Of a DNA stretch of 64,000 nucleotides, positions 11,901 to 49,319 are shown in pieces. Where the stretch lies: NCBI RefSeq assembly GCF_004027225.2, contig NC_044289.2:9837761-9901760 (forward strand), in the 5' to 3' direction. Within the stretch, counting starts at the first letter, position 1. Every line of letters begins with the position of its first letter. The position numbers and the translations under genes were made by a program. The notes under the pieces were generated by a model. It was not told the origin of the DNA. It made no database searches and was given only the letters and a program-made list of their open reading frames with translations. The DNA comes from Strigops habroptila. Taxonomy: Eukaryota > Chordata > Aves > Psittaciformes > Psittacidae.

Positions 11901-14900
11901 GGACTGCAATAAGAACCCCTGGGAACATCTAGCTTGCAAAGCTGTGTATGAGGGGCTACAGGGTGGAAGATAACCTTTCCCATCACCACTGTGTCACTGC
12001 TAGCAATGACCCCAACTGGGAAAGAGGAGAAGAGGGAAGGCTGATGCCAGCTCCCATGTGTTTGGGGCACCAGTCTGGACGTAGAGCAGCCCACACAGAG
12101 ATGGCTGTGCCTCACAAGATAAACTACAACAGAGCTTTCTGCACAACCCTGCCTGTACATGTGCTGTGCAACAGTGCTGCAGGGGAAAACAGGCAATGTT
12201 ACAGCAAGGGGGGTGAAATGGGAAAGGTGCTTCCCATGCAATCAGAGAGCAAATTCTGCCCCCTGAGAATTCAGCCCATTTATTTTAAAAAGTGCAAACT
12301 GCACCAGATTCCACATTGGGAAGAGCTGAAATGAATGGTCTTTGGCTTATTGATCACACAACCTTAAACAGCAGTGATGCCATGAGCCAAATCTCAGCCT
12401 TGTACTGGCCTTACATCAAAGCAAACCCACAACCTTCAGACACACTGCAGGTCCTGCTGTGCCTGAGGGGAGAGCAGCATCCTGCTCTAGTGAAGTGCTG
12501 CCCTTCTTCTGGGGAACACAAATTCTGACCAGCAAAAAGCTGGACCCAAAACTGCAACCACAGAAACACTGAAGGTGGAGTATAACTGAGCCCCTGTGCT
12601 GAGCCTCTGACTTACCCTGCTCTTTCGTTGCCATCAGCTGCAGCTCTTTTTTTCCTCGCTTTTCCAAACCCTCCTGTTGTTATTAACGCTGGGACTGTGT
12701 ATATCAAAGAGAGAGTACATAGTATAAGTGGTAAACACTAAGGCTATTTACGCCTGCAAAACAGCAAAGATGGGCCTTTAATGTCATATGGTTTTATCTT
12801 CAGCAGGAAATAAAAACAATGATAACTTTGTATTTTCGTATTATCCATGACGATCAACCGTTTCACTGAAAAAAGAATGTTTGTTGCCAAATATTTGCAT
12901 GAGCAGTGTAAGCCTACTTAGCAGGCACACTAAAAAGACAGAGAGGGGAGACAATATTCACTTAATACCAACTCTCAACAGATTTGAAGTCAGTTGTAGC
13001 CAACATCCAGACTGGACAGATTTTGACCCCAGAACAACAAAAATGACAAGCAGTTCTTCTAAAATTATTACAGGTGTGTCATGAAAACTGGATTTGAACA
13101 AACTGTAATCAGGCTTTTTCTCCAGAAACTAGCTGGGAGTCCCATCTGCCTGCACTCTGCTCTAGAACAGAGAAGTCTTATCATGCCTTTGATGGGTATT
13201 GCTCCTTCCTGACTTTTTGCAGGTGACTGATAAAATTTAAAAAAGACATTAAAAAGTGCTCAACACCCACTTAAAACTGCCAGAGATTCACACTTGTATA
13301 CAAGAGGCCTGTAGTATAGGCCTCTACAACAGGCCTGTAGTATTTCACTTTTGAAACACAGCAGACCACAGCAAACAGCAGGCACTGCCTTCAAACACTG
13401 TCCTGGGAAGGACATCTGTAAGCCTCAGTGTGAAAAGCTCACTTCTCAATTACACCAGACAGGCCCAGAGCAAACATGCTGATGTCTGAAGACAGCTCTT
13501 TTCAAATACAGTGAAGAAAGATCAGCTCTGCTGACCCAAACAAGAGTCCTTCCCCTCATTATCCAGACACTTACGTTTTCAGTGGACTTACTCAGGGACT
13601 GTTTGCACTCTGTTCCTTGCTGAGTCCAGTACTCCACGCAGCCAGCCCTCTCCTCCAGAGGAGGGCATGCCTCTCCTCCATTCCTCGCCTCCTGGATGAC
13701 ATGTCTCCTTCGAACACGATATGTTGTCTTGCAAGGCTCTGCACAGCCACTCCAGGCACTCCACTGGGACACGACACAGGGGATAACTGGAGGAAGAGTA
13801 ACAAACAGGGGTGTGGAAGGTTACAGAATTGATACCAGCGACATGCCTGCTCCAGAAATGATACTTTTCAACATACCTCAGAACAATCTTCATCATTTCA
13901 CACCTGTCCCACAGTTGTATTGGGCAGCTCCCAGGGGGCTCTGCTCCCAGAAAACTACCTGCCCTGAAGCTCCAGCCATCCAGGGGCCAGTCACCTCCTT
14001 CTCCTATACCACTGCAAGCCCCCCCTGCAAACTGGGACTTCCACTGGGTGAACTAAGTTTTAGAAGTAAATGAAGTCAAATCCATTAAGAGCCACTATGC
14101 CCAGCATCTTACAGTAACAGACATTCACACTTCGATTTACAAAGGTATTCAAAAGCCTGTGTCCCACTGATTTCACTGGGACATAAGCTCCTAAATGCTG
14201 CTGCGAATCCCAGCTTTTCTGAGCAGCTTAATACTTGTCCCACAGGACACAGATAACCCCTAATTACTGCATTAACCTCAACTGAAACTGCCCTGGTCTT
14301 CAGAAACTTTAGGAAGATCTTTCAAATGCTATTGCTCTTTGTCTAAAGTAACACAAGCAGCTTTTTTAACCTATTCAAGTATTAGGCATTAAATCAATTA
14401 TCTGAGTAATTGAGATATTTCTTATATGCAGCAATGCACCACAAAAATATAAAAAGCCTAGGGCTGTAGGCTACCCAACACTAGATTCTTCTTGTGCATC
14501 TGATTTATTTGGAATGTTCTCCTCTCTGCAGTTTTGTTTGGTGTCAGATATTAATGTCTTTGCCTTAGTATTTTGGTTTACAAGTCAGTTTATTAAAGTA
14601 ACTCTTCAGTGGTGGGAGAAAGAAAACTACCAAAAAAAGGCCAGGTAACGAAGGCAATACAAGGCAAAGCAGAACTATGTCCCTTACATCCAGCACAACG
14701 AATCACAAGAAATAACGCAGAAATATCTCCTTCTGCACAAACCCAGCTTCCCCGCCTGATCTCCGTAAGCAAGATGCTGCTATTCCCCCGGTGAGCCACA
14801 GGATGGCACCGGGCTGAGCGAGCACAGCCAGGGCTGCAGCTGGGACACTGGCACTGCTGCCAAGGTGCCCAGCACAAAAAGGGATCAGTGACTGCCCTCT

Positions 14901-16257
14901 GCCAGCCCCTCACAGTGCGCAACAAGGGCCTGCGAGCACGTTTGTCTTAGTACTCTTCCATAACATGAAGAACAGACACGAGGAGTCCCTGTCTATCCCA
15001 GTTATCCCTGATGACTGCCGAGAGCAGCAGGATTCGGACACAGTGGTAATGAAGGAGTACCCAATCATGTTCCGATATTAAAGGCTATGAGGCATCCAGC
15101 CCCAGCGGCAGGACAGCCACGCTGCACCCCTGCACCAGGACAGAGGTGAGGCAGGTTTATGGGATCCCGTGGGCACCCCTTCGATGCTCTCTGCTGCACT
15201 TAGGAGTTGTTGGTCTGCAACCTGCCAGCCTGTCCTCATTCACAGACACAGCTTGTTGAAATCACTTTGCAACAAACTTATTTTCCACCCATTTTCCAGC
15301 TCTCTCTTGAAAGGAAAAATGCAATTAAATCGCAGGAATGTCTGCCCATCTGCCTACAGCAAAACTGTGCTAAGGCACAGCTTTGTTTGAAAAAAGATGC
15401 ATGTTCGAAAAAAGAGAAAAAACCATTATGTGAGCAGGTAAGACACTTTGAGGATGCTGTTTGTGGGAAGGGAATATGCGATTGTACCACTCGCTAAAAT
15501 AACTCACCTCCTCAATTCACATCCACGCTTTAACAGAAGACGCTTACGGAGGGAGTGCTGCTGTGCTCCCGGGAAAGGCAGCGCTGCCCAGGAACCCCGG
15601 CACTCAGCTGCACGGGCACTGCTGTTGAGGCTCTGACCACATGAAACGCTGTGGCTGCTGCTGTTGATGCCTTTTGCAGGGAAGCATGGACTAACAGGAG
15701 CAGCAGATCTGATCCGATCCACAGTAATTCAATCCACAAGAGGAAAAGGGATTGAGAGACTCTGACTCAGCCAAGAAACGTCCTGTTTCACTTTCTGTCC
15801 TGCACAAACACGCTGCATCCTGACGTTACGGGGCAGCTACCTGCTGCTGGGGACCTCACATCCCTGAGAGCCACAACCCAGGGGGGAAGCACAGTGTCTG
15901 CAGCATCGCTCTCTCTGCCACCTGCACGCTGCCTGCCCCTCTGCTTCTCCCGGCAGCTAGGCAGCATGAATACAGCCAGAGCCCCTGGGCAGCCCCTGGG
16001 GACGGTCACAGCCCCGCCGGCCACTCACCTGGGCAGGCCTCGGCGTAGTCATGGCAGCAGTCGAGGGTGCGGGCGCAGGCCTGGTCGCAGTAGCAGGGTC
16101 CGTGGGAGCCGTCGGGCCGGCGGCCGGTGCTCAGGCAGGCGGGGTCGCGGCCCGGGCAGCACAGCCCGCGGGCGGCACAGCCGGCGGCGGCGCGGCGGGG
16201 CAGGGCCGGCAGCACCAGCAGCGCCAGCACGGCGGCCCAGCGGGGGCAGCCCGCCAT
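5836..16257 (-). CDS. SBSPON: SBSPON, somatomedin B and thrombospondin type 1 domain protein (whole spliced gene)
   Basis: A complete coding sequence in five exons: 16257-16029, 13786-13592, 12694-12616, 10838-10662 and 5953-5836. Exon lengths 229, 195, 79, 177 and 118 nt sum to 798 nt, or 265 residues plus TAA, close to the mammalian length of about 264. Every junction is GT-AG and every phase closes. Order of parts: signal peptide (about 1-25), somatomedin B domain (about 26-76), TSP1 domain (about 84-130) with the WSAWSGC C-mannosylation motif at 85-91, a basic linker, and a cysteine-rich C-terminal domain with the signature HWMQYLREG. The family is secreted and matrix-associated (also called RPESP); its biochemical role is poorly known. 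Codons split across exon borders give Gly168 and Lys227, matching the family pattern AGYC. The start has a perfect GCCGCCATGG context inside a CpG island. Confidence 0.95.
5954..10661 (-). other. SBSPON: SBSPON intron 4
   Basis: This is the largest SBSPON intron, about 4.7 kb. It holds a MIR-like fragment near 10455-10545 (separate entry is not warranted beyond the one given) and a short CA tract near 8772. No additional exon, RNA gene or convincing reading frame was found; the 186-codon frame at 7993-8553 is on the plus strand and has no family resemblance. Confidence 0.7.
10455..10545 (+). mobile_element. MIR-like CORE-SINE remnant
   Basis: The phrase CCTGGCTCTGCCACTGGCTT followed by ACTGTGTGAGCTTCACCAGG and TCATTTTATCTCCCCA follows the MIR core (ctctgccac, ctgtgtgacctt, aagtcacttaacctc). 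It is heavily diverged, as expected for an old SINE fossil. Confidence 0.65.
10662..10838 (-). CDS. SBSPON: SBSPON exon 4: C-terminal cysteine-rich domain, first part
   Basis: The acceptor is TTGGTTTCAG|GTACTG and the donor GCAGAAA|GTAAGAG; 177 nt, phase 2 to phase 2. It encodes YCVEFQLVAITPGCL, then THWMQYLREGHTVCVEC, and ends SLHCYGDGSGSRK. WMQYLREG-TVCV-CQ-PA is the most recognisable signature of the SBSPON C-terminal region. Reading past the donor meets TAA at once. Confidence 0.95.
10839..12615 (-). other. SBSPON: SBSPON intron 3
   Basis: About 1.8 kb. Near 11150-11200 there is a weak MIR-3'-end-like phrase, not strong enough to call. Overlapping frames of about 80-158 codons on both strands (11114-12334) show no domain or splice context, and I treat them as chance. 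Confidence 0.65.
12616..12694 (-). CDS. SBSPON: SBSPON exon 3: short basic linker
   Basis: A 79-nt exon found by requiring a phase-1 to phase-2 link between exons 2 and 4. The acceptor is ATACACAG|TCCCAGCG and the donor AGCAGG|GTAAGT. It encodes IPALITTGGFGKARKKRAAA and then DGNERAG. The family has the similar phrase VPAFITT at this place, and the joined AGYC agrees with mammalian SBSPON. The RKKR segment fits a furin-type cleavage consensus; whether it is cut is unknown. Confidence 0.9.
12695..13591 (-). other. SBSPON: SBSPON intron 2
   Basis: About 0.9 kb. It contains a 13-bp unit (AGGCCTGTAGTAT) at 13305-13317 and 13331-13343, with a diverged copy between them, making three tandem units. 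No other feature seen. Confidence 0.7.
13592..13786 (-). CDS. SBSPON: SBSPON exon 2: thrombospondin type 1 repeat
   Basis: The acceptor is CTTCCTCCAG|TTATCC and the donor CCCTGA|GTAAGT; 195 nt, phase 1 to phase 1. It encodes C-V-V-S-Q-WSAWSGC-AEPC, then KTTYRVRRRH and NGGEACPPLEERAGC, a TSP1 repeat with the two-tryptophan C-mannosylation motif and the conserved cysteines. The ladder ends with VEYWTQQGTEC. The frame stays open for a few codons into the intron, but homology stops at the donor. Confidence 0.95.
   Translation of the reverse strand, partial: LSPVSCPSGVPGVAVQSLARQHIVFEGDMSSRRRGMEERHALLWRRGLAAWSTGLSKEQSANSP
13787..16028 (-). other. SBSPON: SBSPON intron 1
   Basis: About 2.2 kb. 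GC content rises toward exon 1. No additional exon or RNA gene was recognised. Frames at 13588-13896 on the minus strand are other-frame readings of exon 2 and its flank. Confidence 0.7.
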
Positions 16258-16600
16258 GGCGGCACGGCGCCTCCGCCCGCCTTCGCGCCCCGCCGCCCGG
16301 CCCGGCTGCCGGCTTAAAGGCGCTGGGTGTGGGCGCTGAGGGGGAAGGAGCCGGCCCGCCTACCCCGCGCCCCGGGGGAAGGCGGCGGAGCCGACCGGGC
16401 GGGGCCCCGGTGCCACCACCCGAACGGCTCCTCGGGCCGGGCCACCGGCGCGCCCAGCCCGGGCAGAGGCAGAGCCCGGTCCCCACGGCTGTACACGGGC
16501 AGGTGTGTGAGCCGGGCGGCCGCTCACCCCGGCGCTGTGCGGTGCGGCAGCTACACCCTGTGCCCCACGACGGGCTGACAGCCACGGGAACCCTTCACAC
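15900..16600 (-). promoter_or_regulatory. SBSPON: CpG island and promoter region of SBSPON
   Basis: Dense CpG and GC-rich sequence surrounds exon 1 and extends about 300 bp upstream of the ATG. The minus strand has CTTTAAGCC near 16311-16319, a weak TATA-like element about 55 bp upstream of the ATG, so a start site around 16285 is possible. No strong TATA box or single start site stands out, which suits a CpG-island promoter. The long frames on the plus strand here (for example 15894-16706) are GC-rich artefacts. Confidence 0.7.
16029..16257 (-). CDS. SBSPON: SBSPON exon 1: signal peptide and somatomedin B domain
   Basis: The exon starts at the ATG and ends at donor CCCAG|GTGAGT, phase 1. 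The N-terminus has a hydrophobic stretch (AAVLALLVLPAL) ending in RRAAAG, a plausible signal peptide. After it comes a somatomedin B cysteine pattern: C-x6-CC, CYCDQAC and DCCHDYAEAC. The CYCD..C...DCC core forms the disulfide knot of this domain. The exon is GC-rich and contains frames on both strands that are not real genes. Confidence 0.95.
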
Positions 16601-17554
16601 AAATAAATGCCCCTTGTTCTCCCGACCACAATGCTGCTTTGCCTTAACCCTCGTGGCATCGCCTAGTGCCCGTGCATCAAATAGTTCCATTTCTGCAGAC
16701 TTTTAAAGCTAAAAGGTATCATTTCCTCACTGCTAGCACTTACCAGCCAAATTATCACAAAGATTACCATCAAAAACAAATTATAAGAGACCATTTTTTG
16801 CCAGGTTTGACTTCAGCATGCCTCAGGAGCCATTCAAAACCTGAAAGTACTTCACTCCCAGTATAGCAGCTTTTAAGAAACACAATCCAGCTGGCTATAG
16901 TGCCTCTCTACAGAATTACTCCAAATTTTTTGCTTACATTCGAACACAAGAAGCTTAAAGCGATTAGAGCCACCTCTGTGAATTATTTAGCTATTCACTA
17001 GGAAGCTGAAGGCTTTACTGAAACTTTTTATCAAACAGGCTTACTCTAAAATATTGATCACAACAGATGTTATACCTTGCTCAACGCTGAACTGGGATTT
17101 ATAAAACCCACCCACCGATTTTTTTGCAACTGATGATGCTATTCTACTAACAGTGGGTATGGGCAGAGTGTTCCCACTTCAGAGAGACTGCAGCAAAGAT
17201 GCTTCTAGAAAAAACACAAAATAATATTAGAGGACAGGCTAACACCATCATGTGCAATGCTGGAGGCATGGGAGCAGAGGAGACCTGGCACCACACCAGT
17301 TCAGGCATAACATGGTAAAGTATTTCAAAAAGATAAGAAATAAAAGGAACTTTAGCTTCTGAGTATGTCAATAGAAGTCTGTAGCAAAGGGCATACGTCT
17401 CATTTTCTTGGCAGCCGTCAGATATTGTCACCTTGGAAATCGCACATGTAACAAATCCTGCAGTGGGCAAGAGGCAAAAGGGCCAGGAGAGGAAAGAGAA
17501 GCGTACTTAGAAATAAGAGGCAACGGGGTCTGGGAAGCAGGAATTTAACAATAC

Positions 17555-33800: not shown

Positions 33801-36800
33801 TATTACCCATGCCTCACTTTTGCTCTCCCACTACATCAAGCCCAATTGCCCCCGTTGGTGTAGCTAGTTCACCGCACCCCCTGCTGCTTCCAGGCAGCAG
33901 CCCCTTGGTAGGTATTTACCATGTATGACCCACCAGAGAAAGGCTTCCACAGGCTCAGAACTAGCAGCACAGGAACCTTCAACAGCTGCCAGATGGCCCT
34001 ACTCCTCAGGAACCTAAGGAGGCTGCAGGGGAATTGGGTTTTAACCCCTTCCTAATGCACATACCTGCTTGTGCTGCTTCCCTCCAAGAGCACACGGGGA
34101 ACAGCTACTTCCATCATTAGGCCCAAGGTTTGAATCTGAACCCGCTGTCTGAGACACCGCAGGTTAATGTATATTCCAGTTCTTCACAACAGCTTGATGT
34201 GAAGGGGCCATTTACTCCATTTGCATTGCCAGTGGGGTCTACAAATGCTACCAGACCAGGACCTGCATGAGACATCTGCCAAGGTCCATTTGTGCATCAG
34301 AGACATCACTCTCGACTGCCAGGCTAATGGGCACAGCAGACTGAGAATGCCTTCTCCCTCCCTGCAGGACAGACTCACACCATTCAACACCTCTATGTGT
34401 GCAGACATCACACAAAACAGCTACATTTACACAGAATTTTCACCCCTGCTGAGGCCAGATGTGTACAGTCAATTGATCTGGGATATGGAAGTCAGAGGTA
34501 CAGGAAGCAATGCATCTTGGGGCTCTTGACTATCTCTCTGGCATAAGAAAAATCTTTAGCTTCCTCCTATTCAGTGGTTCCCTACTTGAAGCACATATGT
34601 GCAGTTCATATTTCATTCTCCTTCTTCGCAAACCTGGAAGTTTGCCAAGGAGCATCCAGGGGAATGCTGCAGGATCTGGATGAACATCTGTCACCAAGTC
34701 TCTAGCCAGCAGCAGTCACTCCTGCTAGATGAACACATGGCACAAGGGAAACGTCCAAATCCTCACAGCAGCTGACATCAGCTTCCCTTCCTTCCTAGAC
34801 TGCTGTCACTTCTCTGTAAGACTTCTGTATGGAAAAACGTGCAAAGCCAGTGACTCACCTGGGAACACACTGACCTACACCTTTTACCAGGCCAGCTAAA
34901 ATCACCACTGAACCATGTTCTACTCTAAGGGAGAGCCTTTGTGCAAACATAGTGTGGACTATACCTCTCCCTCTGGTCCAGAAGACAGACCTGTTGTCAA
35001 CCTTTCAGCATTCAGCTGTTATGTGCAGACAACTGTGCCCTCGTGATGCTTCCTGCAGCACAGCAGCAGCCAGAAGTCCCAGCTAAGCACTTGTACTTCA
35101 GGGTATGTGAAGCTATACTGCCATGAGGTCATGCCCCTTTCCCCTAGCTTGAGGCAGCAGACACCTCTATGTAAGCAATGATTACACGAAGCATTTTTGC
35201 CATCCAACTCCCAAAACCAGTTAGGAGATCCAGAAATTGGCTGTTAAAAGCACATAAAGAGAATTTCAGTCACCAGCTGAATTCATCTAGTACTCAGATT
35301 TTATTAAAAACAGGTTCTAAACAGTACAGAAATGCACACTGTGCTGCAGCATCCAAGTGCCCCTTCCCTGCTTTACAGGCTGCCAATGATACATTACTAA
35401 AGTGTCCTGGATGACAAGGGAGAGCCAAGACTTGAATCCCACCCCTCCATACACATGAGGCCATCCTCCCCAATTTGACAACTGCTCTCTAAAGAAAGGC
35501 TTCCTTACTTTTAATGGTTGTGGTAGGGTAGCATTAGCTGTCAGGTGGCAAATGCAGCCCTTGGAGACAAAAGCATTCAATTATATTAAACATGCAGCAA
35601 GTTTCAGAATCCATGACAGTTAAATGCCTCATACCAAGAGAAAGAAAAATGTAACACTCTCTGTCTGTAAGTTGGCAGGACACCAATTTATCACTCCTGC
35701 TAGCTCTGAGAAAAGACCAGAGCTGCTGGCAGGGTGATGTGAATGCTGTAGCTTGGACAAGTGATCACAGGCAGCAGCATGGAGAGGGGCATCATTAGCA
35801 GAAGACAGCTTTCTGCTAGTGCACTGAAATCACAGCAGGTCCCAGGACAACTTCTGACAAATCTCAACCTGTCAAGAAAACAGCCAACATTTTGTCAGTC
35901 CACTCTACTGCAAACAGCAAACATACAGCTTTCAAATAGCCCCACAAAACCAGACAGCAAGCATTCCTCTGCAAAATCAGCAGAGGAACAGCAAAAACTT
36001 CTTCACAGCCAGGCAGCCCAAACAGGACACACTTAAAACTGTGGGAGCTTTTATAGTACTTGATAAAAACCTGGGAGAGCTGAGCAGAAAATGCCAGAGT
36101 ACCATATCTGGTCAACTCTACCAGCTTCACCACCTGACACAGACCACTCATACTCTAAAACTTCTGAATTCAACAGTGCTATATAGCTCACATTTATACT
36201 CTTCATAGACAGAGGCTACCAAAGAGACTTTGAGATACAACAGCTGCACAAGAGGCACCTAAACAGCAATACAAGGCTGTAACTGAATGAAGCCAGTGAC
36301 AATAGCTGCTTATCCAATGAAGGGAAGTTCTGTTAAGCACATTTTCTAGAGCATTAGTGAAATCCTAATCAAACAGCTAAGTTTTCAGATGTCACATCAT
36401 TGATCTTCTATTAAAAAGAAAACAATAACAAAAACTGAAACAAAGAAAAACACCAAAAGCAATCCTCCTGCTGCAAATAGACGCACTGCTGGAAGCTGAT
36501 TTTCATCCATGCTTCTGCAAGGCATTGAGAATCTTCTACTGAAGGAGGCAAGGGGAATACATCAAGAAAAGCTCCCTGGATCTCTGTACGAAGCAACTCA
36601 TTTAAACACTGCTTAAATGGGGCAAAAAAGCTGTGCCCTTAAAGTTAAACTGAAGCCTGTCAGAGCTCTCTGCCATTTACTTAAGATCTTTTGAAAGAAT
36701 TCTTCCACTTTTGATCCTCTTTTACGCATGTCAGATAGCGTTATACAATCAGTGTTACTATATGTGCAGACAGTACCCTCCAGTGCTGCCGACCCTCAAA

Positions 36801-37029
36801 GCATGCAACGTATTTCCTTGTGATAGGGGTGCAAGTGCATGTAGCCTCAATATACAGCCACATGAGGAACTGAAGCATCCTGCATCTGTGGCATCAATCG
36901 ATCTGGCCAAAACAGAAGATGCATCAGCACTGCCAATCTGGTGGGGTAAAAAAAACCCACAAAAAAGCTTGAAGTCATTATGACAGATGCTCTTCAGCTG
37001 AGCATTAAAAGGCAATCAATTACATTGTG

Positions 37030-37228
37030 AGAAGCCCTCCCCCCCACCTTTATTTTTATTTAAACCAGTGAACATAGGTGATCAAAGACTTACCATTCAA
37101 TCCCCCTGCTGCAGGGTCACATGTGGTGAAGTAAACCAGGCAACTCATCACACAATTCATCGCTGCCAGCTACAGCCACCACATCTGGTCTCCAGGAGGT
37201 TCAACACACCTTCTGCCTTCTCAGCACC
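37030..37228 (-). ncRNA. snoRNA host exon A (probably terminal)
   Basis: The acceptor is TTACTTGTAG|GGTGCTG at 37229/37228. A donor-like ATTGAATG|GTAAGTC sits at 37094/37093, giving 135 nt if used. No downstream unit follows. Just after the donor the minus strand reads AAATAAAAATAAA (37061-37049) and then a G-rich stretch, so the exon probably runs through the donor and ends near 37030. A further spliced exon at lower coordinates cannot be excluded. Confidence 0.6.
37049..37060 (-). terminator. Double poly(A) signal after exon A
   Basis: Two AATAAA hexamers in tandem on the minus strand, about 35-45 nt past the exon A donor, followed by GGTGGGGGGGAGGG as a G-rich downstream element. This is the likely 3' end of the host transcript. 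Confidence 0.55.
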
Positions 37229-37302
37229 CTACAAGTAAAACCAAAGGGAACAGTTAGCACCAGGCCCTACCAGGGGTGTGGGACACAGCCAACACTTCCC
37301 CA

Positions 37303-37392
37303 CTGGTGCATCAGACATGATCTGGCTTGGAACAGCAAGAAATCAACACTGTCGCTCTGATGGGGAAAAAATTTAGTCATCATTTACACCAG
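37303..37392 (-). ncRNA. Box C/D snoRNA, copy A
   Basis: A 90-nt RNA on the minus strand. The terminal stem pairs CTGGTG (1-6) with CACCAG (85-90). Box C is ATGATGA (10-16) and box D is CTGA (79-82). An internal D'-like CAGA (34-37) and a C'-like TGTTGATT (45-52) are present. The 3' end lies 74 nt above the exon A acceptor. The guide upstream of D ends CCAGATCATGT; the guide upstream of D' is T6-CCCCAT. I could not match either to a known rRNA or snRNA site from memory. Identical in sequence to copy B. Confidence 0.88.
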
Positions 37393-38084
37393 CAGGTCCC
37401 ATGGGGTTATGTGGCTGCACACCCACAGCAGGCGTGCCACACTCCCACCTCCTGTGGCAGATCTGCAGGGAGGGAGGTAACTTAGAGCAGAGGAAGTGGC
37501 AAAGCCATGCACACATATGGCACCACTGAGTGCTGAACATCTGCAATCCCCTCACATTCCCTCAAGTCAGCCAGCAAGGGACAGAGCAGAAAAGACTTAA
37601 CAGCACCTCTCTTCCAAAGGGACACACTTCAGCCAGGATGATTCCTTCCTGCCCCTTATGGGGGCAGCTGCTCTGAGCAGCAGATCATCCCCAGGTCTCC
37701 ATGCAGGGTGTTCTTAAAATGAGCTCTCTGATCTGAATGCATCAGGGAAAACAAGACAGACCTGTACTCCACCATCCTGCTCCAGCTCAGCCTGCACTGA
37801 TGCAGCTTGCAGATTCCTTGCCCTCCTGATTCCTGTTCACTAGCAACACCTGCCACTTTGGGCATGCTGAACAGGAGCAACACAAGGCACAAAGGACCTA
37901 ATTGCAATGCTTCCAGATGAGGGAAACCTCTATGCTTTTACTTCTACAGTATCTAGGCTAATGCTCAAATTTACGTATCAGCCGAGTCTCTAGTGAAAAA
38001 CTGGAAGCAACTCCCTTGCAGAAAGGTGTATCTCTTTTTTTATTTAATTTAAACCAGCAGTCAACAGTTATTCCAAGGACTTAC
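37393..38084 (-). other. Host intron between exon B and snoRNA A
   Basis: The part next to snoRNA A (37393-37550) is duplicated at 38385-38526 beyond snoRNA B and partly at 38917-38970 beyond snoRNA C, marking the amplified unit. The rest (about 37560-38010) is unique and shows no feature. AATAAA on the minus strand at 38044-38039 lies 40 nt past the exon B donor. Confidence 0.7.
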
Positions 38085-38221
38085 CATCCCTACTTGCTAG
38101 CGGTTCAGCCATGGTGGAGCAAACCAGGCAACTGCCCTCATGACACACTTCATTGCTGCCATCTACAGCCACCACATCTGGCATCCAGGAGGTTCAAGGC
38201 ACTCTCTGCCTTTGCAGCACC
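38085..38221 (-). ncRNA. snoRNA host exon B
   Basis: The acceptor is TTTCTAATAG|GGTGCTGC and the donor AGGGATG|GTAAGTCC; 137 nt. It is clearly homologous to exons A and C along its whole length (shared AAAGGCAGAG, CCACATCTGG complement, TTGCCTGGTTTGCTCC). No long open frame. Confidence 0.8.
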
Positions 38222-38294
38222 CTATTAGAAAAACGAAAGGAACAGTTAGCACCAGGCCATACCAGGGGTATGGGGCACAGCCAACACTTCCCCA

Positions 38295-38384
38295 CTGGTG
38301 CATCAGACATGATCTGGCTTGGAACAGCAAGAAATCAACACTGTCGCTCTGATGGGGAAAAAATTTAGTCATCATTTACACCAG
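38295..38384 (-). ncRNA. Box C/D snoRNA, copy B
   Basis: A 90-nt RNA, identical base for base to copy A, including the CTGGTG/CACCAG stem, box C ATGATGA and box D CTGA. The 3' end lies 73 nt above the exon B acceptor. The identity suggests recent duplication or gene conversion. Confidence 0.88.
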
Positions 38385-38620
38385 CGGGTCCCATGGGGTT
38401 ATGTGGCTGCACACCCACAGCAGGCGTGCCACACTCCCACCTCCTGTGGCAGATCTGCAGGGAGGGAGGTAACTTAGAGCAGAGGAAGTGGCAAAGCCAT
38501 GCACACATATGGCCACCACTGAATGCTGAGCAACTCCCTTGCAGAAAGGTGTATCCCCCACCCCCCTCATTTTTTGTTTTATTCAATTTAAACCAGTGAT
38601 CAGTTACTCCAAGGACTTAC
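38385..38620 (-). other. Host intron between exon C and snoRNA B
   Basis: A duplicated unit flank matching 37393-37550. Near the donor it contains AATAAA on the minus strand (38583-38578) and a CCCCCACCCCCC tract on the plus strand at about 38556-38567. Confidence 0.7.
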
Positions 38621-38754
38621 CATCCTTACTTGCTAGATTCAGCATGTTGGAGCACACCAGGCAACTGTGCTCATCACACAATTCGTCACTGCCAGCTACA
38701 GCCACCACATCGGGTCTTCCAGAGGCTCAGCAGCCCCTCTGCCTTTGCAACACC
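38621..38754 (-). ncRNA. snoRNA host exon C
   Basis: The acceptor is TTTTCTAATAG|GGTGTTG and the donor AAGGATG|GTAAGTCC; 134 nt, homologous to exons A and B. Stops occur in every frame. Confidence 0.8.
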
Positions 38755-38826
38755 CTATTAGAAAATCAGAAGGAACAGTTAGCACCAGGCCCTACCAGGG
38801 ATGTGGGACACAGCAGCACTTCCCCA

Positions 38827-38916
38827 CTGGTGCATCAGACGTGATCTGGCTTGGAATAGCAAGAAATCAACACTGTCGCTCTGATGGGGAAAAAATTTAG
38901 TCATCATTTACACCAG
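38827..38916 (-). ncRNA. Box C/D snoRNA, copy C
   Basis: A 90-nt RNA differing from copies A and B at two bases, both in the segment upstream of box D (GCTATTCC for GCTGTTCC, and CACGT for CATGT). Boxes, stem and the 72-nt distance to the exon C acceptor are intact, so it should be processed normally. Confidence 0.87.
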
Positions 38917-40112
38917 CAGGTCCCATGGGGTTATGTGGCTGCACACCCACAGCAGCCGTGCCACACTCCCACCTCTCCCAGCAGACTCATGGGCACTGAG
39001 TGAATTCATGCAAATCCTTCCCCCAAAAGAGCTGGCTGATTGGCATGTTTAACAGGCACATGGGATGGAAATACTACAAAAACCCAGAGAAAACAGTGAT
39101 GTATGGGGCTTCAGCAGCAGAGCACAAGACAGATGTAACAGAAAAGGAGGAGGCAGGAAAGAGGTAAGAAGTTACACATTCCTGCAGGCGCAGCCTTTAT
39201 GGCCATGTGAGGCTTCCACCTTCCAATGCAAAGGTAGGTCAGCTGGGCCATGAACAAGGCACAGGCCATACAGTGAACACTACTACACACCTACCAGCAA
39301 CGGGCAGGGCAGGAAAACTCCAGAAGCAGCCCCTCCTCCGAGGGCCCACTGCAAGCAGCCCAGCTCTGCCCCATGCCAGGCCTGCAGCACAGCCCCATGT
39401 GCTTCCAGCAATGCCTGGTCCCCAGCTCGCTGGCCACAGGGCACTGAGCACTCAACCCACTGCCCCTCCCAGGCTGTGGACTTCTTGACCTGCTGGATCT
39501 GCCACCTTGCACACAATGGGAGTGAGACGAAGCAAAAAGGGCCTGGTGGCAAGGCTTCTGCAGGAGAAAACCCTCTCTGCTCTCAACTCCACAGAATATG
39601 CGCTAGTGGTCATACCTACATATCTAAAAGAATCACATTATCATTAGGGCTGGAAGAGACCTCTAGAGATCATCTAATCCAACACCCGTGCCAAGGCAGG
39701 GCCACCTAGAGCATGTTACACAGGAACGTGCCCAGGTGGGTTTTGAACGTCTCCAGACAGGGAGACTCCACAACCTCCCTGGGCAGCCTGTTTCAGCGCT
39801 CTGCCACCCTCGCCATGAAGCAGTTCTTCCTCATGTTGAGGTTAAACTTCTCGTAGTTTAGTTTATTGCCACTGCTCCTAGTCCTGAAAAGAGTCTAGCA
39901 CCATCCTCCTGGCACCCACCTTTGAGATATTTATATGCATTAATGAGATCCCCTCTCAGTGCTCTCTAGACTTAACAGGCCCAGAGACTAAACGTCCCCA
40001 GGGACACCAACCTGACAAAGCATTGCAGAAGCAACTCATTAACTCTTCTGAAAAATAATTTAAGAAGTACCTATTTTTAAGCCAGTGAGGCACAGTTATT
40101 TTAACGACTTAC
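38917..40112 (-). other. Host intron between exon D and snoRNA C
   Basis: The longest host intron in the unit array, about 1.2 kb. The first 60 bases beyond snoRNA C repeat the unit flank, then homology stops. The interval 39629-40000 is a CR1 insertion. The rest (39000-39628) shows only chance frames. Confidence 0.7.
39629..40000 (-). mobile_element. CR1 retroposon, 3' part
   Basis: GGGCTGGAAGAGACCTCTAG..ATCATCTAATCCAACACC begins the element (reverse complement of the 3' end). It continues through CAGGTGGGTTTTGAACGTCT, CTCCACAACCTCCCTGGGCA and AGTTCTTCCTCATGTTGAGG to GAGATCCCCTCTCAGTGCTC, a long recognisable stretch of CR1 near its 3' end. It lies in the host-gene intron in the same orientation as the host transcript. 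Confidence 0.95.
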
Positions 40113-40208
40113 CATTCCCCCTTGCCAGAGGCTCATGCATGGCAGAGTAAACAAGGAAACTGCTCTCCTCGCACGCCTGACCCTGCGGCATCAGGTCTCC
40201 CGGAGGCC
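40113..40208 (-). ncRNA. snoRNA host exon D (exon 2 of the gene)
   Basis: The acceptor is CTTCCCTTGCAG|GGCCTCC and the donor GGGAATG|GTAAGTCG; 96 nt, shorter and more diverged than A-C but alignable at its 3' half (TTGTTTACTCTGCCATG and the GGAATG|GTAAGTC donor). It contains the stop of a short spliced ORF at 40135-40133. Confidence 0.75.
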
Positions 40209-40510
40209 CTGCAAGGGAAGCCGAAGGGAACAGTAAGCACCGGGTCTCACAAGTGCCTGGCACCCAGCGGCGCTTCCCGCCGGTGCATCAGACACGACCT
40301 GGCTTGAACAGTGAGAATCAACACTGTCGCTCTGACGGGGAAAAAACTGTCATCAGCGGCACCAGCGAGCCCCCGGCCCGGCCAGGGGAACCACCATCAC
40401 CTCCCCGCGAAAGGCGGCCAGGCGATCGCTTACCGAGAAGCGCCGCAGGAGCGCGGAGCAGAGCCCTTGGGGACAGGGCCCCCGAGGCTGGACGGGGAAG
40501 AGGCGGCCAT
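40133..40510 (-). CDS. Short spliced ORF at the 5' end of the snoRNA host transcript
   Basis: An ATG at 40510-40508 in a strong context (GGC-ATG-G) opens 25 codons in exon 1 (MAASSPSSLGGPVPK...), joins across 40434/40208 as an Arg codon and stops at TGA 40135-40133 in exon D, about 51 residues in all. No family resemblance. With three more exon junctions downstream, the stop should read as premature, so the likely consequence is nonsense-mediated decay of the spliced host RNA, as in other snoRNA host genes. It depends on the predicted exon 1 being right. Confidence 0.3.
40280..40365 (-). ncRNA. Box C/D snoRNA, copy D (diverged, promoter-proximal)
   Basis: An 86-nt RNA. Box C is CTGATGA and box D CTGA; the terminal stem CTGGTGC/GCACCGG keeps seven pairs through G-C and one G-U pair, despite several changes from copies A-C. 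The block TCAGAGCGACAGTGTTGATT is unchanged in all four copies, as is TTTTTTCCCC. The 3' end lies 71 nt above the exon D acceptor and the 5' end 68 nt below the exon 1 donor. Confidence 0.85.
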
Positions 40511-40707
40511 GCCACTAGGCCTTGCGGCCCCGCCGCTCCCTCAGCGGGTGGGCATGGAAACGAGGCCGGCGGCCGCCAGAAGCCCGCCCAGGCAGGATAG
40601 GCTACCAGGAAGGGGCAGAAAAGAAAGGCCCAGGACCCACCAACCCGCCGACCGCGTCGGGAGCCTACCCACGACCCACAATCACCTCAGTCACGCCGGA
40701 GCAAGAG
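40434..40707 (-). ncRNA. snoRNA host exon 1 (predicted)
   Basis: Predicted from a start in CCCTCTTGC, 30 nt below TATAAAG, to a strong donor GCTTCTCG|GTAAGCG at 40434/40433. Earlier weak donors (GTGATT, GTAGGC near 40660-40690) would make a shorter exon 1. The 5' end is inferred from promoter geometry. Confidence 0.5.
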
Positions 40708-40737
40708 GGCGACAGGCCCCACGCGAGGCACTTTATA
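40701..40737 (-). promoter_or_regulatory. TATA box and 5'TOP-like start
   Basis: TATAAAG reads on the minus strand at 40737-40731. Thirty bases further is CCCTCTTGC (40709-40701), a C followed by pyrimidines as at the start of TOP transcripts. TATA plus TOP is characteristic of ribosomal-protein and snoRNA host promoters. Confidence 0.6.
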
Positions 40738-41949
40738 GGGTCCTCGGGGCCCGCCCCGGCCCCGCCCGCGCCGAGGCAGGAGGGCGGGCTCCGGCGCCAT
40801 GTTGGGCGGTGCTGCCCGAGCTGCGTGAGGGGATGGTTTCCTTTTTCATCTTACCTTCGTCTGCCCGTGGATGGGTTCCCGCTCCTCTGGGAGGCCGTGG
40901 GCAGAGCCGTCCGCTCTCCACTGCGGGAGGCTCGGAGCCGGTGTCCCGGGGTGCGCTCGGCAGCGCGGGCGGCCGCGGCCGCCATTTCGCGGCGAAGGGC
41001 AGGACGGGTGCGGGGCGTGCTCGGCCGCGCCGCTGCGCCCTGGCCCCGCTCGTCTCATGGCGGTGCGCGCGTGTGGAGTCTGCAGGCCCACCCCGCTGTG
41101 CCCGGGCTTCATGTGGGGAGACGGGCTGATGCCGGCTTAAACAAGTATTTCATTGTGTATAAAGATGTGGACAAGGCTACAAGGTCAGGCGTGCAACAAG
41201 AGGACCACATGTTTTCTCTCAAATAGATGTGGGCCTTTCTCCTGTCAATAAGGCCCGAGAAATAGGTAAACAGCTGCAAAAGGAAACAGCTAAAGGAGCT
41301 TTTCAGAGTTATAAACTAGCCTGTTTGTAACTGTAGTTAATTGGCAAGACTTCCAGTGTCCTTAACTAACAGATTTCTATAAAAGGGTAAAAATGAGTAG
41401 GGGTATTTCTCACCAAGTGACCCCCAAAGACCATTCCTCAAATTCACAGCGTTTGCGCTATGGCTTTATCTACCAAAATTACCATATGCTATGAGTAACA
41501 AGAATTGCGTGGGCATTTTCTGGAATTATGATGAATATGCATATAATAAAGGTATATAAGCTGTAAACTGTCTCTTCTGGGTGTGCATGGTAGGCAGAGC
41601 GATCCCCTCTGCACCCAATACCATAATAATGTTGGCTTTCTAACCTATCGTTCTGCATAGAAAGTTTATTTCCGAGATTTCGGTGACAGGGTGAAGGCGG
41701 GAGGGTGCAGCCATGTGCCTGTCCCTGCACTCGGAGTTGGGTCCTGTGGCTGCAGCCTCCCACCCAGATCTGGCACCAGCACCACGGGGCAGCCTTGGGT
41801 CCTGCTTCAAGTGCTGGTACACACCATGTGTCACACTGCAGGGGGGTCCAGAGACAAACAGATGCTTGTGGCATCAGTACATGTAATGTGCTTTGCTGGG
41901 ATGGGCGGGTATAGCTTTGGAAATTAACTTTTTTTTTATTTTCCTTTTA

Positions 41950-42045: not shown

Positions 42046-45000
42046 CAGGAGCCCCCAAACAGGTAACTGAAGGACTGGCTGCTATACCACTGTCCCTCTC
42101 CCAGTTCAGGCTCCTGCTGATGCGCGACTGGTTCTGCTCAAGTTCGTGTCACTTAGAGGATGCCCACTGCAGTTTGGAGAACACAGCACAGCAGCAGTTA
42201 CCTTGCTTTTAGGTGGCCATAGACAGGCAATTTGTGTTGTGTTAAATAGGTTGCCACTGAGTAATGTGAGGAATGGAACAGAGAGCAAAGGATGTGTCTT
42301 GAATGAGAACAGCCTGGCTTGTAACCCAAGCACTGCTGTGCGCTGCGATTTTATAGCTATAAATTCACCTCGGAAATGGGGCATGAAGGTCAGCCAAGCA
42401 CAGCGTTTATCCCTCACCAGAGTCGCTGCATAGTAGAGGGTGCCACCGTATGATTCAGAAGTGTTCTCCAGCCATGGGCCCCCCTCCCAGCACCTCCTGG
42501 GGAAGGTAGGAAATTTTGTCACTAGAGTAAGACCAACTAAAGAGATGGAGTTGAAATGGAGTCAGAGTGCTAAGAGGCAGGAGGACAGGCAAGGGAAGGC
42601 ACAAAGCCATATACCAGTTTTCCATTGGCAGGGTGGTCTTTTGGGGTGAACACAGGAGTTGCAACAACCCTGAGTTACGCAGTAAGCAGCTCTGGTCTAG
42701 ACTAGCTCAACATCATGTAATTGCTCCATGCTTTAGTTTTTTCTCTTTGTAAAATACACACTGGTTATGCTGAGGCACCAGGCATAGCAGTTCAGTTGCT
42801 CACTCGCTCACTCGGAGTTGCATGAAATGGGATGTGGGATTTGTCACCTCAGTGCTTCAGCAAACCAGCCCTTACTTTGGTATCAAGCTTCTACTAACTG
42901 AACAAGGATTCAGTGGCAAGGGAACCAGATCAGGCTGATTGCAAGGTGAATATGTCCTCCGGGACCAATGGAAGGGGTAGTTCAAGGATGGTGCTTGAAA
43001 CGTGATGAGAACAAGAAAAGGCACGTGGTCAATTTGTTGGCTAGTTTGCAGGCGTACAGCTGAGGCTCTGCAAATCTGCCAAGAGAAGCCACGTGAGGTA
43101 TTTTAGACACTCTGAAATGAGTAAGCCTATCTTGTTTAATTCACCTCCCTGTCTAGTAGTATCTACAGACATAAATACCACAAGTACATATATAGGCCTT
43201 ACAGTGTGTTTGGTGTAACACTGCATAATTCAGCTACCCATTAAAATGCTTTTACCAAATTAAACGTGCTTGTAGGCAACTAATTCTTGAAAGCAGCTTA
43301 TCAAACAGGACCTGTGGAATAAATCTCAATCCCATTAATCCAAGTTCCAGAACACCAAAAGATGAAAAGACAATCATGAAGGACATTTTAAGAGGATTAC
43401 AGGGAAAACTAATCTTGTTACGCTGCAAACCCATGTCACGTGCAAGAGGAACTGTGAATGTGATTTGTGTTGCCTAGCTTGGCAAGGAAGGAAAAATGGG
43501 AAGATCTGGGATGTTAAACAGCTGCAGCAGAGCTTAGTATCAAATTTACTTGACTTCACTGGGTTTTATTCTCCGTGTCAGAAAATGTTGAAAATCTCTT
43601 TAGCTAGATGAGTTCTTCAGCTCAGTCAGGGCTCGTTGTAGCGAGACTCATTTGAGTGAGGAAGTTCCTCAAGAGGCAGCAAAAGTCAGAACATACACAA
43701 GTCCCAGTTCTCTTTATTACTTACTTGGGGAGGGACCTCTCCTGTGGCGCATTGCTGGCCAGATCAGGCAGCACATGAAGGCTTCACAGCCGATTAGCAG
43801 GACTTCTGGCTGCAGGACTGCTCTGTGCTTTTCTTGCACAGGCTGGTTATTCCCAGCAGTTATTCCCTGTGCGTGCTCTGGTAGGAGTCACACACTCTGC
43901 CTAGCCTTACATGAGTGGCTAAAGCCAAGGAAAGAGGTTGAAAGGCAGTTTAGTCACGTGCATTGTTTTAAAAGTACCACGACTTCTGAAGAGTGCTTTT
44001 GCATTGTATGCCAGCCTTCACAGGGACATGTTTTCAGCTTCTTCTGAACGCCAACACTGAGTGCTAGCAGAGAATCATTCTTTTCTGTAGGAAGGGGAAA
44101 CCTGATGAAAGAAGAAATGTTTCTGAATTGCTAAACAAGACCTTGTTAATCTCATGGGATGATTAAATATTTCACATGCCGGCATCCAACTGCTACATTG
44201 TTGCGATTCAGGGTTTTTCTTTTCAATCAGAACTGAATATTGCAGAAAGCCAAATTTTAATTGGGATGCAACCTCTGACTTCCCAACATAATAACCTGAA
44301 CTGAAACCCCCGTACCAGATGTCTCCAATATTCAAGAAAATTCTAATACAGATTGTAATTTTCTAGCATAAAGTTTTGTAAGATAATAAAAATAATAACA
44401 AAAAACAAGCTGTGCATCACAAGCCATGAAAAGATCTCTCTGAACTGTTGTGTCAGCAACTTCACTGTGGAGTATTATAGTAATAAAATAGTGCACTGAC
44501 AGGGTATTGGGAAAAAAAAAGTGTGAGCATGTGCCAAATCTCACACCCTGGTCTTCTGGACTATGAAAAATTCCAAATACAAAATTCACAGAATGGCTTA
44601 AAGGGCAGTAAGAAAGAAACTGCCATAGTTTGGTTGTGGAGCCAGAATTTTTCCAGCCTGCAGCTACAACTAGAAACAAATGAAGACTCTGAATGACCCA
44701 GCTGAGTTTAAGTAAGAGACCCAACAGGGAGATGTATTCAGATTTACCAGTTTAATAGGCCTAGTTGCACAGACATTATGTTCTCTTTTTTTCCTTTCTC
44801 CAGACTGTCATGGGTTTCCATCCAGAAATGACAGAAATGGATCACAGCTGCAGTGCGACTGTAGCAGGATCTTCAGGCCAGTTTGCAGCAGCAGGTTTAG
44901 AGGTCAGTAGCTATGGATCACAAGAGACACAAAGCACTCATATGGAGAGATCCCAACATTCATTTTTTCATGAACACAAGTCTTACCTAGGGACACTGCA

Positions 45001-48000
45001 CTGAGTCAGGGTCAGTGCAGAGCACTACACCTTGCAGGACTAGGTCCTTTGCTGATTTTTATGCATCTGCTCAGGTTTAGTTTTGTTCAAAATGTTATAA
45101 CAGTATTTCCAAGCTCAGATAAACCATTTAAAACGTGGAAACAATAAATGCCTGTTGGACAAGCAACTGCCTTGTTAACAGCTTTGTACTGAGGATACAG
45201 CAATTTCTGATGCTGCATGACACCAGTTAAGATCTTGCAAAATTACTGGCTAATCTCTACAGAAAACATTTTTGGAGGGAGAAGGGAGCTTTGTTGGCTT
45301 ACAGATTACTTTGTGATTATTAGCAAATGCATTTTACATAGGCATCGATGAAAGACACTGCTCTGTCAGAAAGAGATGGAACAAAAGACAAAGGAAATGG
45401 TAGACTAATATGGTACTACTTAAAAGTTACTTTAGAAATGTTTATATCCTTCTTTATGTTGCAAAAATAACTAAGTGGTTTTAGTCCATTTACATGGGAG
45501 AAGTGTTTCAACTGCAGCATGTTGAAAGAACACGTGCAAGAACACATTACAAGACTTTTCAGCTTAACACAGGTGGAAATGCTTTGGCTCAAGAGGTAAA
45601 CAGCAGTTTAGTTCATCTGAACAGTGTGTTATTAGCTACGATCAGAAAGGCACCACATGCCTTGCTAGTGGCTTCTTGAGATCAGGGGGTGTCAAAATAA
45701 GCAGTACAGAATAAAGAGAAAACACATCTAGAAACTGAGTTCCCAGAGCAGAACCTGGAGCTATCTTCAAACAGCTCTATTTTTTGCACTGAGTATGACA
45801 ACACTCCAAGGTAGTCAGGTGAGGAGCACAGGACCTCACGCAGCCCTTATGGCGAGTACAGCTTGCTCTGTTTCCCGAGTTTGGAAGAACACCTCATAGA
45901 ACATTTTGTTGAAATGTGTTTCTCTCTAGGGAGAGGAAAGATACTTCATATGCTTCAGAGATGCAGGAATCTGTCCATCACAAGTGAGGTCGTCTTAAAG
46001 CCTGCTTTAACAGATGTTACTCTTCTAGGAGTAGCAGGAGTTCATGGAGAGGAGAGGAGGGGAGGGGAAGAGAGTAAGCATCTATAAAGTAAAACCACTA
46101 GTAGAAAGGGAGGAGTGAACATACCATATAGCTAAAGGCTAAAACAGGTTTTCAGAAGAAAGGGCCAACAAAAAATACTGATAGACAAGAAACAAGGAAG
46201 TAATGTCAGCATTTACAGGGAATTTGGAAACGCTTTTGGTCCATTCCCTTGCTGGATGGACCAGAGGACCGTGGGCTCAAGTGTGTGGAGTTGCAATATG
46301 TGCAAGCCTGTGCATATTCACGGTTTGAATACTGGTTGTGTGCCTGTTTGAAGGCGGACTAGCTTTGTTTAATGTCCAGCCTAAACACAAACACCACACT
46401 CCGCATGCGGCACAAGACCATTAAAACCAAGAAAGTTACATGCAGCTGACTGATGAATGACAAGACGTCTGCATTTGACCCAGTTTAAGTATCACTTTAA
46501 TCTAGGTACATCTTCCCTGTCTGCATACAATAATGGACCAGCAGAATGGGGAGGGGATAGACAGTAAAAGCTCTTAAATAACATTTTTTTCTCTTTTAAA
46601 CAAAAATCAGCTATAATTTCTACATCAGTCCTTTAGAGATGGAAATACAAGAAGTTAAAACGCTCACTGAAAACACCACTTAGCTTTGAAGTCAGTACAG
46701 TACAAGAGAAAGCACAACAGAGTTATTGCTAGAATGCTTAAAGAGACAATTATTTGAATGTAATTAGCCTTTGTGAGTTTGAAGTAGCACATTTTCTTCA
46801 AGTTTTTATCCACTTTAGTAATTAAAAGAACTTGGTGGCTCAACATTTTAGTAAGCTCCTCTACCTACTTACGCTTTAAAAGGAATTCACAAACTTCTTA
46901 TGCAAATGCAGTGGCAGTTTGTAGGACAGTTACACGGAATCTTATTTATGGCAAACTACTGATGGATTTATTTTTCCAGTGATGCTTTCCTTTCCCAGTT
47001 GTTTTTTCTAGGCAAGAGCTCAATGTTAAAACCAAACTGCTGCGTGAAGCCAACTATGAAAGCAGTGCTTAGCAACCAGACACAATACATATCTGTACTG
47101 TGATGTGCTTGGTTGTGGCTTTAAAATGGGAGAACAGCAATTTGGGAGACTGCACCCACAATAAAATAGGGACTAGAAATTAGCATCTCTTGTCCCAAAC
47201 AGATTTTGTATTTGGGCTTTGACATAAAACATATCAGAGGTTTTGTCCCTTAACATAGGGTTGGGATTGCCGCCTTTGGGAGCACTCATCTCCCTTCTGA
47301 GGGGGGGACAGGGAAAAAAAAAAAAAGAGGCATTTAAACATAAAAGACTATCTTTTGATTGGAAATAGTAAAGATAAATGAAAGAATGGTAGCAGAGGAT
47401 GAAAGCATTGAGAGCATACTCTGAAGAATATTTTCTGCATCATTAACACAGGACACTTAAAATCTAAAGCATCCCATATTAGCAGGTTGCTAAAAACACT
47501 GACATTGGAAGTGGGAGAATGACTGAAGTTTAAAAGCACTATAATTTTTTCATTGCTAATCAAATTTTATTTTTTTGCATTAGGATACTGCCAGTGGTAT
47601 AACAAAATAGTTATACTGGAGAATAGAATACACTCTTGATTAAGGTATTATTCACCATCTGTGTGCTTTTATTCAGTTCTAATCCACAGATTAAATGAAT
47701 ACCCTAGAGATTTTCATTTGCTCCAACAACTTATTTTTTTCCCAGCCTCTTTCCACAGGATGTTCAGTTCTTGCTCAGAAGTTCCTGAGTTTTAAATAAG
47801 TGTACGTGTCCATTTGACAGGTAAAGGGAAGCAATACGGGATGTCACAGCCACAGAGATAAATATGAGTGTTTTCAGATTTGTAACCACCTCTGAAGCAG
47901 CATTCCTTTGTCTGAGCTTAAACAAACAGTCTAAATAAAATCACATAAATATAGAAGCCCTTAAGGAAGGTATTACATCAACTCACACTTACTCTGTTGG

Positions 48001-49319
48001 TTTCTATCTGCAGACCTTCAAAATAAAAGAGCAAACAATTACATGGTTGCCTCACAAAAGATGATCCGTGAAGTGGTATACACACACCCTCTCCCTTCCT
48101 GCAGTTAGGCACTTTTGGAACCTCCACCATTTGTCTTCATACATTCAGACAGAATAAAACAATTTTTAACTTTGATCAGTGGGTTAGAACAGAATTTTGG
48201 TTTCATCCTTCAGCAAGGCAGTAATTGCAGTGGAACTCCATGTACAGCTACATTTTGTGTTACTGAAATTTGGCCAGAGAACTGACAACACAGATAACTG
48301 CCCTGCTGGCTCCAGACTCCCTAGCTGACTCCATTCACATAGGACTTATCCTAAACCAAAACAACAACAAAAAATTACAGGAATGTATTTTAATGTATTA
48401 TGGAATAAACGGGTATCACAGTGAATCCAGGCTAATTCACATTCTATAGGCACATTATAGCTATCCTACACGTCAACGTTCCCCAGAATAAATTTTCCAC
48501 AAATCCTTCTTTTCTGTAAGATCTCCATCCTGAAACCAAGAATGATGCATCATGAAAAGTCATATTTCTTCTTTTGGGGGGTCAGGACTTCCCACTAGTG
48601 AATAAAATATTCTGCTTTAAAAAAATTCCCTGACCAATTTTCGTTATTCCCCTTTAACTTTTATGTAATGCAGTTGTTTGCCTCAAGGACAGTAAACTGA
48701 CCCATTCAAGAAAGATGATACTCCAAAATCCCTGGATGAACATGGACTACCTTCCTTCTGGTACACCAACTTCAGCATGCAGCATGTTACTTCATACAGG
48801 AGACTTTTGAGCAGCAGTCTTCAAGCTCAGTAACAGAGCACTGGAACAGGCTTCATTTGCAGCACCATCTACTAAGCCACTCTTCATGTTCTTATACAGG
48901 GCATTAGGACCAGACATTTGCCTGCACCTCTTCAAAGAATAGTGGCACAGCACCATTCTTCTGACAATTACATGCAGCTGTATAATTGTATGAATAAGAA
49001 AAGGCTTGAAGGAAAGCAGTGCAAAACCTGATAGAATTTAGAGGTTGCCTTAAGGCTTTGAAATCTGAGAGAACAGTCATAAGTGCTTTCTTTCCAATAC
49101 CAGAAGATAACATGCAGACTGGAGTCTGTCAAAGTCTAGACATGTGAGGGAGTAGAGGCAGACAGGACATTTTCTTTGGTGAAGGAAAATGTATTACCTA
49201 CACTGTCAGGTCTCTGCTGATCTTAATTACAAGCTGACCTGCTGGAAAATGAACATCAGTATTTCCAGAATCTGGTTTCCAAACTCCTCAGCTACTTCCT
49301 TTGAGCCTGTATTCTCCAC

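Follow-up and report, generated by a model that had tools for sequence, protein, structure and literature searches.

We found that a 64,000-nucleotide stretch of the Strigops habroptila genome (contig NC_044289.2, here C13, positions 9837761-9901760; referred to as the window) carries, on its minus strand, four copies of the box C/D small nucleolar RNA (snoRNA) SNORD12, and that these copies lie in consecutive introns of one predicted spliced gene. With a probability of roughly 0.9, we regard this host gene as the avian counterpart of human ZFAS1, that is, an apparently non-coding RNA polymerase II gene with a TATA box and a terminal oligopyrimidine (TOP) start that would carry one SNORD12 in each of introns 1-4. 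Positions are those of the window unless a contig is named.

SNORD12 copies and predicted structure of the host gene

Families were assigned with cmscan against Rfam 15, in which SNORD12 is RF00581 with a curated cut-off of 43 bits. Four matches were obtained, all on the minus strand, with scores of 68.7-78.1 bits (E 9.9e-13 to 2.6e-15): copy 1 (40279..40366, 68.7 bits), copy 2 (38826..38917, 77.8 bits), copy 3 (38294..38385, 78.1 bits) and copy 4 (37302..37393, 78.1 bits), which belong to units 1 to 4, respectively, copy 4 being identical to copy 3 at 92/92 positions. The UGAUGA C box, the terminal CUGA D box and the closing stem are kept in 4/4 copies. A preliminary description of this DNA, made from the letters alone, had proposed four minus-strand box C/D snoRNAs; these are real, each predicted 5' end falling within 1 nt of the Rfam match, and the covariance-model check that it had suggested placed all four above the RF00581 cut-off. 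Its remark that no named counterpart was recognised proved wrong, because Rfam gives SNORD12, for which the human host ZFAS1 and four chicken copies, named GGgCD57, are in print. A 24-letter core pattern searched with up to 3 mismatches gave four matches in the window, all with 0 mismatches, versus 0.00 expected from 100 shuffles; chance boxes as the source of the four snoRNAs are ruled out by this control together with the Rfam scores. Across the whole 1.15-Gb genome (89 contigs) there are at least four RF00581 matches, all inside the window, a lower bound obtained by scoring 57 of 104315 first-look candidates. The core pattern was present in 0 stretches of the contigs of non-eukaryote genomes and in 0 of the viral contigs.

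Upstream of the first unit, a TATAAA element (40732..40737, minus strand) is located about 30 nt before a pyrimidine, TOP-like start, CCCTCTT (40709-40703, minus strand, chosen by eye). The predicted exons follow on the same strand: exon 1 (40434..40707, with a putative start), exon 2 (40113..40208), exon 3 (38621..38754), exon 4 (38085..38221) and exon 5 (37094..37228, internal or terminal), exons 2 to 5 being defined by splice borders only. Between 40760 and 36500 there are six GTAAG sites, namely GTAAGC at 40433, the donor of exon 1, GTAAGT at 40112, 38620, 38084 and 37093, and an alternative donor of exon 3 at 38629; candidate acceptors are situated 70, 71, 72 and 73 nt past the Rfam 3' ends of the four snoRNAs. 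The exon borders and the snoRNA-to-acceptor spacing given earlier are thus borne out, at 70-73 nt and with intact GTAAG donors, and the TATA/TOP-like promoter expected of a multi-copy intronic C/D host fits the sequence (TATAAA at 40737, CCCTCTT). The motif AATAAA occurs at 37060 and 37054 behind exon 5 and likewise at 38583 and 38044 behind exons 3 and 4; because it follows exons 3, 4 and 5 alike, the last exon is not recognisable from it, and its use as a last-exon mark for exon 5 was dropped. Intron 2 contains, between units 1 and 2, a repeat at 39680-39960 that we take to be CR1-like, in keeping with a CR1 insertion at this point; two repeat-like stretches near RPL7 on another contig (see below) show weak similarity to a portion of this intron (E 0.024 and 0.29).

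Known counterparts

The gene type and the four-copy layout are already known, the latter having been published for chicken in 2009: Shao et al. (PMC2653536) described GGgCD57 as four isoforms in introns 1-4 of the expressed sequence tag (EST) BU281079, with 28S-G-3388 as target (12 nt, 5') and snR190 and HBII-99 as homologs. The chicken system shares with the present one the number of copies, introns 1-4, the snoRNA family and the predicted target, whereas the available part of that paper mentions no relic copy such as the degenerate fifth one described below. In human, SNORD12, SNORD12B and SNORD12C are in consecutive introns of ZFAS1 (PMC11971394, PMC13238724); the arrangement in one host is the same, but there are three copies rather than four and a relic. 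The human SNORD12 family is orthologous to snR190 of yeast and snR107 of fission yeast, which have the same two antisense elements; however, snR190 guides no methylation and is excised from a precursor that also contains U14, and snR107 is in one intron, in contrast to the several intronic copies here (PMC11971394). Hosts of the GAS5 type likewise have short exons, a TATA box, a 5' TOP start and one snoRNA per intron, but the chicken gas5-like gene has ten snoRNAs of several families, whereas here one family is repeated (PMC2653536).

Position relative to KCNB1, STAU1 and ZNFX1

A human KCNB1 fragment used as query matched C13:9694387-9694953 (plus strand, 93% identity), which we take as an exon of KCNB1 and which puts this gene 0.18 Mb from the host on the same contig; the same query matched C1:32899016-32899579 (minus strand, 89%), taken as KCNB2. 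STAU1 exons are in the window at 60059-52751 on the minus strand, heading toward the host promoter (Staufen_C, E 1.3e-22). The sequence read was that of the window itself, which begins 143 kb from the first KCNB1 exon; the neighbourhood order covers the named genes, between which there may be further ones. The human order is STAU1-DDX27-ZNFX1-ZFAS1-KCNB1, and the wider neighbourhood of human ZFAS1 includes KCNB1 and STAU1, as here. A ZNFX1 match was found at C13:16342203-16342514 (plus strand, 79% over 105/216 amino acids), and for an N-terminal ZNFX1 fragment the window had matches at chance level only (E 2.4 and 3.7); ZNFX1 adjoining the host was accordingly rejected, with chance-level matches in the window and the real match at 16.34 Mb. 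Among the 73 plus-strand open reading frames (ORFs) of at least 50 amino acids right of 41 kb, two had weak, unrelated Pfam matches (E 0.0047 and 0.0069); the scan took up to 10 of the 67 minus-strand ORFs of at least 50 amino acids in that region, and outside the scan were 91 minus-strand ORFs located at 21-41 kb and, as a set, the 87 ORFs of alignment A2. Judged by these landmarks, the SNORD12 host is a positional counterpart of ZFAS1, between KCNB1 and STAU1 and not beside ZNFX1. Because the head-to-head arrangement with ZNFX1 fails, we term it a ZFAS1-type gene, or positional counterpart. A literature search for conserved synteny of ZFAS1 in birds or chicken found no paper.

Relationships among the units and a degenerate fifth copy

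The snoRNAs of units 2 to 4 are nearly the same (copies 2-3 and 2-4, 90/92 each; 3-4, 92/92), and that of unit 1 shares 84.1-86.4% identity with these. At aligned sites the exons share 87.0% (units 2-3, 9 gap columns), 86.3% (2-4, 21) and 87.4% (3-4, 18), and the exon of unit 1 shares 74.4-80.0% with those of units 2-4 (43-51 gap columns). The promoter-proximal unit is therefore diverged, as had been described, and the claim of three near-identical blocks holds for the snoRNAs and for some of the intron sequence but not for the exons. Counted in bins of 50 columns, units 3 and 4 agree at 199/200 columns over the snoRNA-bearing core (38489-38290), and at 40, 44 and 35 columns in the three bins that span 38240-38094. 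The intron before the snoRNA has 99 matches and 1 mismatch versus 111 and 16 in the exon (Fisher p 0.00064, for stretches picked after the identity profile had been seen), a contrast not seen for units 2-3 (p 0.27) or 2-4 (p 0.46). Since selection on the snoRNA does not account for identity beyond the snoRNA, the most parsimonious interpretation is a conversion tract, and units 3 and 4 were probably homogenised later by gene conversion, atop an older duplication. The proposal that exon, snoRNA and intron were copied as one block agrees with the similarity of the units, but their uneven identity does not follow from it, units 3 and 4 suggesting the later conversion.

Behind exon 5 we found a fifth, degenerate SNORD12 copy (36882..36990, minus strand, below the Rfam cut-off), which was absent from the preliminary description. 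A SNORD12-like stretch at 36963-36885 scored 29.6 bits (E 0.0055; Rfam, relaxed thresholds, all families, 5.5 kb), and a model derived from copies 1 to 4 matched 36962-36885 (20.7 bits, E 0.0057, 97 kb). This copy is without UGAUGA; it has UAAUGA at 36980 and UUGA at 36897, and its sole CUGA is internal, at 36927. An outer stem of 8 bp, GCAUCUGU (36990) with ACAGAUGC (36889), is 4 nt off the UUGA; boxes and stem were picked by eye and extend partly beyond the Rfam match. By the rules of kink-turn folding, such altered boxes and an offset stem would not be expected to form a C/D core. A functional fifth copy was set aside, with both boxes changed and the stem not abutting the D box, and because of these same features we read the copy as the relic of a decayed unit.

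Proposed target and function

In human, antisense element 1 (ASE1) of the SNORD12 family guides methylation of 28S G3878 (PMC11971394), and Gm3878 is guided by SNORD12C (PMC7243338); antisense element 2 (ASE2) is required for pre-rRNA processing in fission yeast snR107 (PMC11971394). In the present copies, unit 1 can pair with a 28S segment along 12 nt and units 2-4 along 10 nt, beside CAGA as D' box. In the proposed pathway, introns 1-4, once spliced, would each release one SNORD12 C/D snoRNA, which would assemble with the C/D proteins SNU13, NOP56, NOP58 and fibrillarin; the D'-linked antisense element, UUUUUUCCCC, would pair with the large rRNA and guide 2'-O-methylation of one G, corresponding to human 28S G3878 and chicken 28S G3388; and the other antisense element may help in pre-rRNA processing, like that of snR107. 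The units would have been born by tandem duplication of an exon together with its snoRNA-bearing intron, and the fifth would since have decayed.

Alternative explanations

Several points weigh against the assignment as the avian ZFAS1 counterpart. ZNFX1, the gene from which ZFAS1 takes its name and which human ZFAS1 abuts (PMC13238724), is not adjacent to the host here but 6.46 Mb off on the same contig. The chicken paper, in the part available, does not term EST BU281079 non-coding, and it reports the gas5-like gene as the sole non-protein-coding host (PMC2653536), so the chicken host is not recognised there as non-coding. The 28S pairing is weak by itself, its score being reached by 21, 84, 97 and 70 of 1000 shuffles for units 1-4, respectively; because shuffles reach such scores this often, it is the published assignment that supports the target. 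The distance of ZNFX1 would fit a SNORD12 host without orthology to ZFAS1, the snoRNA having been gained independently at this site, but we consider this improbable, as the locus sits between KCNB1 and STAU1, which in human, too, belong to the wider surroundings of ZFAS1, and no other SNORD12 locus was present among the 57 genome candidates scored.

The preliminary description had instead explained the cluster by unequal exchange in a gene with one snoRNA, which would have raised the dosage of one guide; in this rival reading the growth would be recent and confined to birds. Units 2-4 do resemble one another in exon, intron and snoRNA, with copies 3 and 4 identical, yet chicken already has four isoforms (PMC2653536) and human three copies (PMC11971394, PMC13238724), and identity is uneven, the exons of units 3 and 4 differing at 16/127 sites versus 1/200 columns in the snoRNA-bearing core; a recent amplification of this kind therefore seems unlikely. 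An origin of the cluster from a gene with one snoRNA through unequal exchange is possible in itself. Least probable of all would be a partly dead cluster, in which the copies are paralogues with one or two in use. The degenerate fifth copy and the 84-86% identity of unit 1 to the others would agree with such decay, but UGAUGA and CUGA are present in each of the four main copies, whose scores exceed the cut-off by 25 bits or more, and the splice borders are intact. An avian ZFAS1-type gene thus stands as our preferred reading of the locus.

A paralogous segment and a possible link to RPL7

A SBSPON-like gene with somatomedin B and TSP1 domains was identified by exon matches at 5839-16161 (minus strand), and a second SBSPON at C1:32672675-32679789. 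One exon of human SBSPON is 76% identical to the C1 copy versus 57% to the window copy, and the remaining exons are about equally close to the two (61/58, 56/55 and 67/67%). Because RPL7 and TERF1 flank the C1 copy and one exon favours it (76% versus 57%), we take the C1 gene to be the ortholog; the window gene is perhaps the whole-genome-duplication twin of SBSPON. A second GC-rich island (15756-16703; 64% GC in 16001-17000), with long ORFs on both strands, lies at exon 1 of the SBSPON-like gene.

Remnants resembling RDH10 lie outside the host at 44804..48933 (plus strand). In exon-wise searches, remnant 1 (44804-44902) scored 31.2 bits (E 2.4e-6), remnant 2 (47026-47079) 27.7 bits (E 5.9e-5) and the doubtful remnant 3 (48892-48933) 20.0 bits (E 0.031), the last being no stronger than a minus-strand match obtained with a different exon as query (20.4 bits) and counting only by its place; the other three of the six exon queries gave best E values of 0.15, 0.79 and 2.2. 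Reversed queries gave E 0.68-2.9, and the best of 60 triplet shuffles scored 27.3 bits. With the whole protein as query, remnants 1 and 2 had E 4e-4 and 0.005, versus bests of 2.7 and 0.40 in two control stretches. Remnant 1 is flanked by splice-like TTTCTCCAG and GTCAGT (by eye).

The order on C1 is RDH10(-), RPL7(+), SBSPON(+), TERF1(-), KCNB2(-), and on C13 it is KCNB1(+), SBSPON-like(-), SNORD12 host(-), RDH10-like remnants(+), STAU1(-). By these matches, gene order around the host is collinear with that of the KCNB2-TERF1-SBSPON-RPL7-RDH10 segment on C1, the host occupying the RPL7 slot on the matching strand, with STAU2 and a TERF1 counterpart on C13 unplaced; a TERF1 query gave nothing convincing within the window (best E 2.4). 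An RPL7 query comprising all but its first two exons gave no coding remains at the host (36000-41000; best E 0.19 versus 0.14-3.2 in five control stretches). Over 20 kb of the RPL7 region, Rfam at E<=1 returned no snoRNA, its two matches being non-snoRNA and below cut-off, and the four-copy SNORD12 model had no match in that region. The promoters of the host and RPL7 aligned with a score of 59, which 0/500 block shuffles reached (largest 57); this marginal, GC-rich likeness, which a shared TOP promoter type would explain, was not used as evidence.

One speculative and rather doubtful possibility is that the SNORD12 host (ZFAS1) arose from the whole-genome-duplication twin of RPL7, which would have kept its TOP promoter and snoRNA introns but lost its reading frame, while RPL7 on the other segment would have kept the protein and be without SNORD12. 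Alternatively, the host may be a former neighbour of RPL7, retained where RPL7 was lost. Either history would fit the finding of no RPL7 coding remains at the host and of no SNORD12 in the RPL7 region; ZFAS1 and RPL7 are unmentioned in the main text of PMC5644071 and of PMC3349704.

Implications

The gene type itself being already known, what is added here is the positional map. If the host is the ortholog of ZFAS1, it would not be antisense to ZNFX1 in this bird, and ZNFX1-mediated roles of ZFAS1 need not hold outside mammals. Should the descent from an RPL7 twin be true, the mammalian ZFAS1-ZNFX1 pairing would be a later rearrangement, and one class of snoRNA hosts may originate from duplicates of ribosomal protein genes in which the protein was lost and the snoRNAs were kept.

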